Positions 22,972 to 32,726 of a stretch of DNA of 64,000 nt are shown piece by piece (the first letter of the stretch is position 1; each line of letters opens with the position of its first letter). This DNA comes from Thermosphaera sp. (lineage in GTDB: Archaea; Thermoproteota; Thermoprotei_A; Sulfolobales; Desulfurococcaceae): the NCBI GenBank assembly GCA_038827615.1, contig JAWBNK010000001.1, positions 558,290 to 622,289 of the forward strand. The letters run 5' to 3'. The notes beneath the pieces were generated by a model, which did no database searches, was not told where the DNA came from, and worked only from the letters and a program-made list of their open reading frames with translations. The translations under genes and the position numbers were made by a program.

Positions 22972-23026
22972 CATCAGCTGGGTATGTTTAAATCACCGAT
23001 CTGTCCGGGAGTAACTCATCATCGAT
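22972..23026 (-). ncRNA. Predicted C/D box guide sRNA (copy A)
   Basis: On the minus strand: C box ATGATGA (23022-23016), 12-nt guide GTTACTCCCGGA, D' box CAGA (23003-23000), 3-nt spacer, C' box GTGATTT (22996-22990), 12-nt guide AAACATACCCAG, D box CTGA (22977-22974). The spacing is that of archaeal C/D box sRNAs, which bind L7Ae, Nop5 and fibrillarin to direct 2'-O-methylation five bases upstream of D or D'. By that rule the targets would read TCCGGGAGTAAC (fifth base G) and CTGGGTATGTTT (fifth base G). A TATA-like stretch at 23051-23062, inside the 3' end of the kinase-like gene, would start transcription near 23028. Targets were not identified. Confidence 0.75.
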
Positions 23027-31856: not shown

Positions 31857-32560
31857 TCTTCAAGCCATTGAATCCTTTCCATTTTGTCCTTCTTTAGTGA
31901 ATCAACGTATTTTCTCACTACATCCACGAGCTCTGCTATATTCACCCTAGGTTCGTACCCCACATGCTCACTGTTCTTCAAGATCTTTGCCGTCTTTGCT
32001 ACGATCAGACCCACGTTGTACGCGTCACGAAGAGCCTGTTCATCTTTAGTAACATCTTCGAGATGAGAGTAAGCCATCGACCATGGGACAATGTGAGCCC
32101 CCATGCTGTTTAGCGTTATTGTCAAGTAAGAGATAGCCATCATTACCCCGCTATCCAATCCTGTTGCGATAAATCCAACTACTTTGCCTTCTAGAAGGCT
32201 TCTCCCCTTATGAAATATCATGTGCTCCATGCTTGTTAATCTATCTATGAAGTTTTTCAACACACCGCTCGGCGCATACCAATAGACTGGGGTTGAAATT
32301 ATTAATCCGTCGGAATCCAATATCCTTTTAGCGATCTCGTTGAAATCATCATTTATTATGCATGGAAATACGCAGTATTTGTTCCCATCCGAGACGCATC
32401 CTATACAAGGCCTTATGTCTTTTTCATACAAGTTGATATATTCTGGAATGCCGCCTCCATCGCTTACTCCCTTAGCCGCCACAAAGGTTAGTTGATTTGA
32501 AGAACCATATATTCTGGGAGATGCGTTCAACATCAGTATTTTCGGTCTTGAAGTCTCCAT
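31829..32560 (-). CDS. Flavodoxin-like NADPH-dependent FMN reductase/iron-sulfur flavoprotein
   Basis: A 243-residue flavodoxin-fold protein. Seen: FMN phosphate loop NASPRIYGSSN (~11), CIGCVSDGNKYCVFPC (~52) with the cysteine pair of this group, STPVYWYAPSG (~90) and FIATGLDSG. The Cys arrangement suggests an iron-sulfur flavoprotein, although the compact CxxC-x(6)-C-x(3)-C spacing should be checked. Start ATG after GGTG-ATTTT. The predicted C/D box sRNA lies 50 bases upstream on the same strand and may share its promoter. Confidence 0.8.
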   Translation of the reverse strand: METSRPKILMLNASPRIYGSSNQLTFVAAKGVSDGGGIPEYINLYEKDIRPCIGCVSDGNKYCVFPCIINDDFNEIAKRILDSDGLIISTPVYWYAPSGVLKNFIDRLTSMEHMIFHKGRSLLEGKVVGFIATGLDSGVMMAISYLTITLNSMGAHIVPWSMAYSHLEDVTKDEQALRDAYNVGLIVAKTAKILKNSEHVGYEPRVNIAELVDVVRKYVDSLKKDKMERIQWLEDQLSRSSSF

Positions 32561-32611
32561 AAAATCACCAATTTAAAAGAAGAGTGCTGTGTGGCGGTAT
32601 TAAAACTATTC

Positions 32612-32666
32612 CTTCAGCAACGCCAACCGTCTTCACGAATCTGACACGGGTTCGCTCATCATCTAA
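32612..32666 (-). ncRNA. Predicted C/D box guide sRNA (copy B)
   Basis: On the minus strand: C box ATGATGA (32662-32656), 12-nt guide GCGAACCCGTGT, D' box CAGA (32643-32640), 3-nt spacer, C' box GTGAAGA (32636-32630), 12-nt guide CGGTTGGCGTTG, D box CTGA (32617-32614). Spacing is identical, base for base, to the element at 22972-23026, with unrelated guides. By the N+5 rule the targets would read ACACGGGTTCGC (fifth base G) and CAACGCCAACCG (fifth base G). A TATA-like taatttttaatc (minus, ~32698-32687) puts transcription start near 32666, four bases before the C box. Targets were not identified. Confidence 0.82.
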
Positions 32667-32686
32667 AGTTGGATAATGTCTTATTA

Positions 32687-32708
32687 GGGATTAAAAATTA
32701 GTTATATT
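32687..32708. promoter_or_regulatory. Shared AT-rich promoter core between sRNA B and taw1
   Basis: The stretch gattaaaaattagttatatt holds TATA-like sequence on both strands. On minus it is ~26 bases from the sRNA start; on plus, the left half is ~26 bases from 32720, close to the Taw1 start. The divergent pair may share this core. Confidence 0.45.
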
Positions 32709-32726
32709 TGGATTCACGTGATCGAA

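Follow-up and report, generated by a model that had tools for sequence, protein, structure and literature searches.

A conserved archaeal C/D box guide sRNA with a predicted target in the tRNA T-arm

The short segment described here, located within a window of 64,000 nucleotides (the whole stretch of DNA that was analysed), raises the question of whether four boxes on its minus strand belong to a C/D box guide sRNA and, if so, which RNA its guides address. Read directly on the minus strand from 32662 to 32614, the segment has the order ATGATGA-12-CAGA-3-GTGAAGA-12-CTGA, and the core from box C to box D (32614–32662) was delimited by this reading together with chance statistics and homologues. 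Box C (ATGATGA, 32656–32662) is an exact match to RUGAUGA and is found as RTGANGA in all 30 homologues, while box D (CTGA, 32614–32617) matches CUGA exactly, and both boxes vary little among the homologues. The inner boxes depart from their consensus by one mismatch each: box D' (CAGA, 32640–32643) is degenerate and occurs as CRGA in 28 of the 30 homologues, and box C' (GTGAAGA, 32630–32636) was assigned by direct reading and homologue comparison, the pair being conserved as RTGAWG and CNGA. Between box C and box D' lies the D' guide GCGAACCCGTGT (32644–32655), followed after box D' by a D'-C' spacer of 3 nt (TTC, 32637–32639), and between box C' and box D lies the D guide CGGTTGGCGTTG (32618–32629). 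A TATA-like promoter element, AATTTTTAAT, is present on the same strand at 32690–32699, 27 nt before box C, and AATTTATAAT occupies the same distance from box C in two relatives of the genus (G027 and G028); a bacterial promoter scan is uninformative at this archaeal locus. The sequence-only reading of this DNA had given the same boxes, spacings and coordinates, which proved exact, had written out two 12-mers that are the correct complements of both guides, and had placed a TATA-like element about 26 bases before box C, in line with the one found.

The four-box arrangement is not expected by chance. A relaxed four-box pattern matched once in the 64 kb, both strands considered, and this single match was the present locus, while 300 simulated first-order Markov windows returned no match to the same pattern. 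A looser scan, for which about 0.017 chance matches are expected per window, additionally recovered another candidate C/D box sRNA on the minus strand at 22974–23022, which shares the 12-3-12 spacing, reads ATGATGA GTTACTCCCGGA CAGA TCG GTGATTT AAACATACCCAG CTGA and lies within an 81-base gap flanked by two ORFs on the same strand; this second candidate is presumably the 'copy A' of the earlier annotation. Its D' guide finds a site of 11 Watson-Crick pairs in 23S rRNA (GCCGGGAGTAAC, position 2066 in the rRNA's own numbering), which served as an internal control for the target-search method. No Rfam family reached its gathering score over the span of the present sRNA, the best being sR5 with 34.6 bits against a required 40. 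With an E-value threshold, archaeal C/D families matched the span end to end, mainly through the boxes (sR5, 34.6 bits, E 8e-7; sR2, 29.1 bits, E 5e-5). Because Rfam families are defined per guide, these scores below gathering exclude the listed families and nothing more.

The comparison with homologues gave further evidence on the nature of the locus. When a 68-base query was used to search the family, the best alignments started at box C and stopped at box D. A total of 30 distinct homologues could be parsed, and a sequence-only model built from 20 of them scored at least 42 bits in 31 of the 40 family genomes, most of the genomes lacking a match being incomplete. Both guides measure 12 nt here and likewise in the 30 homologues, among which positions 2-9 and 11 of the D' guide (nine of the twelve) and the core GGTYGGCG of the D guide are invariant. 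The deviations of the inner boxes are themselves conserved (CRGA and RTGAAGA). The length of the D'-C' spacer, in contrast, ranges between 3 and 48 nt, and the spacer often folds into a hairpin, as in GCCCCCTATTTTTATAGGGGGCT (-17.6 kcal/mol). Taken together, conserved guides, a variable spacer and conserved box deviations are what would be expected of a functional RNA with two guides. These comparisons indicate that the locus is almost certainly a genuine C/D box guide sRNA, so that the earlier assignment to this class is borne out by anatomy, chance statistics and C-to-D conservation across the family. A homologue may already have been described among the Pyrobaculum or Ignicoccus sets; Lui is said to have reported 110 Pyrobaculum families in 2018.

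Two further features of the core were observed. In several genera (loci L050-L052, L054, L058, L060 and L061) the spacer forms a strong hairpin of up to 48 nt and -28 kcal/mol, which would turn the k-loop into a full k-turn with a stem. The two guides (32618-32655, minus strand) are also partly complementary to each other, with AACC in the D' guide and GGTT in the D guide, replaced by ACCC and GGGT in other genera, which could reflect either targets that pair with one another or chance.

The rRNA and tRNA sequences of the genome, collected by family search, were compared with both guides. The D' guide pairs with the T-arms of tRNA-Ser(CGA), tRNA-Ser(GGA) and tRNA-Cys(GCA) through nucleotides 48-57 (C48 to G57), forming 10-11 contiguous pairs of which one or two are G-U, and guide position 5 falls opposite G51, inside the duplex. 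None of 200 shuffled D' guides scored as high on the tRNA set, and the match is to be read as partly generic because all tRNAs share GTTC; with the core of the guide given, 25% of random guides score at least 9.5 against one T-arm or another. Each of the 40 family genomes contains a T-arm of the class CNYGGGTTYGA, usually in the form CGCGGGTTCGA. Weaker homologues from outside the family keep the guide core GAACCCG in the same register and at the same distance from box D'.

Variation in the guide bears on this assignment. In family f7 the guide reads GTGAACCCGGGC/T, and the changed guide of genome G152 forms 10 Watson-Crick pairs with the T-arms of its own tRNA-Glu, tRNA-Gly(CCC) and tRNA-Ala. 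In G029, a C at guide position 3 would convert the G-U pair with G49 into G-C, and complementarity is kept when this guide is tested against the tRNAs of the present genome. An A at the same position in G017, G018 and G210 mismatches tRNA nucleotide 49 and leaves 7-8 contiguous pairs with the tRNAs seen. One tRNA-like match in G017 carries T49 and would give perfect pairing; it was left uncounted as a probable degenerate tRNA. Overall, these observations point to the tRNA T-arm, rather than rRNA, as the best-supported target, with G51 as the predicted methylation site, and we place the probability of this reading at roughly 0.65. The sequence-only reading had proposed that it would be supported if at least 10 bases matched in 16S, 23S or tRNA at a site with the right base; its tRNA part held, with at least 10 bases paired to the D' guide at a G, while its rRNA part failed in the comparative test described below. 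It had also taken the lack of any rRNA or tRNA match as evidence against itself, a result that was not obtained given the tRNA match of the D' guide.

For the D guide the evidence also leads to tRNA, and the assignment is weaker than that of the D' guide. Its core pairs with tRNA nucleotides 25-32 (CGCCGGCC), placing G26 opposite guide position 5, and this pairing is seen in tRNA-Arg, tRNA-Gly, tRNA-Thr and tRNA-Ser(GCU). In this genome alone, the match was equalled by 130 of 200 shuffles, while none of 100 shuffles did as well in two genomes taken jointly; family f7 is without the D guide core. The D guide may address G26 of several tRNAs. Both sites, G51 and G26, are carried by tRNA-Thr(UGU), tRNA-Thr(CGU) and tRNA-Ser(GCU) in this genome, which suggests the possibility, though a rather doubtful one, of a double-guide sRNA with both guides directed to tRNAs and even to the same tRNA, G51 through the D' guide and G26 through the D guide. 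If this were true, the sRNA would bridge the T-arm and the junction of the D and anticodon arms, and could help folding besides making Gm51 and m2,2Gm26. The tRNA-directed sRNAs treated in a 2021 review have one tRNA guide, with the other guide lacking a target (PMC7994747).

An alternative is that the sRNA guides methylation of rRNA, for example at position 937 of 16S rRNA (own numbering), within CAACGCCGG, through the D guide. In this genome the site 933-941 forms nine contiguous pairs with that guide (seven Watson-Crick and two G-U), and the 16S segment containing position 937 is identical in 12 genomes. Against this, the invariant positions 10-11 of the D guide stay unpaired at the site, and pairing at guide positions 2-3 is lost in G017 and G019. 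More generally, the best rRNA sites in this genome offer 9 pairs in 23S to the D' guide, at sites that are not retained in relatives, and 9 to 12 pairs, many of them G-U, to the D guide. When aligned rRNAs of 11 genomes each were searched with 60 shuffled guides, the best conserved site of the D' guide was equalled by more than half of them (36 of 60 in 23S and 39 of 60 in 16S), and that of the D guide by 6 of 60 in 23S and 9 of 60 in 16S. Targets in rRNA are therefore not supported, since no 16S or 23S site was conserved clearly above shuffled guides, and we consider the rRNA explanation unlikely.

The conserved guides could otherwise address another stable RNA, such as RNase P RNA, SRP RNA or the 16S-23S spacer. 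The D' guide forms 10 contiguous pairs, eight of them Watson-Crick, with a segment of RNase P RNA close to its 3' end in this genome (ATACGGGTTT), and 8 of 500 shuffled guides did as well; yet the segment deviates from the archaeal consensus at this site, and the match scores 9.0 against 10.5 for the T-arm. SRP RNA and the spacer each offer two adjacent partial matches, and both candidates were rejected because the matches are lost in relatives: that in SRP RNA is absent from them and that in the spacer is full within the genus only, in a comparison that leaves out G002, G017 and G034. Altogether, a target in one of these RNAs appears quite improbable. As a separate observation, the spacer contains a hairpin, ACACGGG...CCCGTGT (L001, L122 and L126-L129), which is kept in several genera while its loop changes, and the D' guide ends with the sequence of one of its strands (CCCGTGT).

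The genomic context raises a last alternative. The sRNA sits in a 157-base gap between an FMN-reductase gene (PF03358), which is on the minus strand with its start codon at 32560 and thus begins 54 nt downstream of the sRNA on the same strand, and the radical-SAM wyosine synthase gene TYW1 (PF08608), which is on the plus strand from 32718. Archaeal mRNA leaders with k-turns bound by L7Ae are known (PMC6298567, PMC5539422), and the position of the FMN-reductase gene, on the same strand 54 nt from the boxes, would suit such an element in its leader; nevertheless, conservation extends to two complete box pairs with two 12-nt guides, and the sRNA persists while the downstream gene varies among genera, so that this reading was rejected as extremely improbable. 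In 19 of 30 loci the distance between the sRNA and TYW1 is no more than about 1.5 kb; around 32560-32718, it was observed that most members of the family retain the sRNA close to this gene for tRNA modification, whereas the opposite neighbour changes. The host assembly is archaeal and measures 1.36 Mb, and the named relatives of its TYW1 are from Thermogladius and Desulfurococcaceae.

Returning to the guide sRNA directed to tRNA, the locus would encode an archaeal C/D box sRNA that guides methylation and is transcribed from its own promoter. Boxes C and D would form a k-turn and boxes C' and D' a k-loop, to which L7Ae and then Nop5 and fibrillarin would bind, and each guide would pair with its target RNA so that 2'-O-methylation falls on the nucleotide facing the fifth guide base upstream of box D' or D. 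The D' guide would most likely act on the T-arm (C48 to G57), leading to methylation of G51 in tRNA-Ser and tRNA-Cys, while the D guide probably pairs with tRNAs as well (nucleotides 25-32, G26) or has no working target.

The sRNA is of a known kind, and the present analysis adds a well-supported and unusually conserved member. It shares with the archaeal sR families (PMC4644070, PMC7994747) the RUGAUGA and CUGA boxes with a C'/D' pair, the 12-nt guides, a core of about 50 nt and a weak terminal stem. It differs from them in that a conserved rRNA target is absent, in its degenerate box D' (CRGA) and in a spacer that has grown into a hairpin in several genera; moreover, its guides are nearly frozen across the family, whereas fast guide evolution is stressed in a review (PMC7994747). 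With the guides unchanged, the D'-C' loop is enlarged in some lineages from 3 nt to a complete hairpin, and the family therefore provides a natural experiment on k-loop versus k-turn architecture. C/D guides directed to tRNA are known, among them a Pyrobaculum guide for Cm56 and a proposed guide for T-arm position 50 (PMC7912444), and complementarity to the T-arm is common to these and the D' guide described here, although the register differs, with guide position 5 opposite G51 instead of C56 or nucleotide 50. In Pyrococcus furiosus, predicted guides address G26 in tRNA-Val and tRNA-Gly, ribose-methylated G26 (m2,2Gm26) has been observed, and in hyperthermophilic archaea several ribose methylations of tRNA have yet to be assigned to an enzyme or a guide (PMC7668247). 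The D guide would address the same site, G26, tentatively here and in a crenarchaeal host, and the sRNA as a whole predicts ribose methylation at tRNA G51, and perhaps at G26, in hyperthermophilic archaea.
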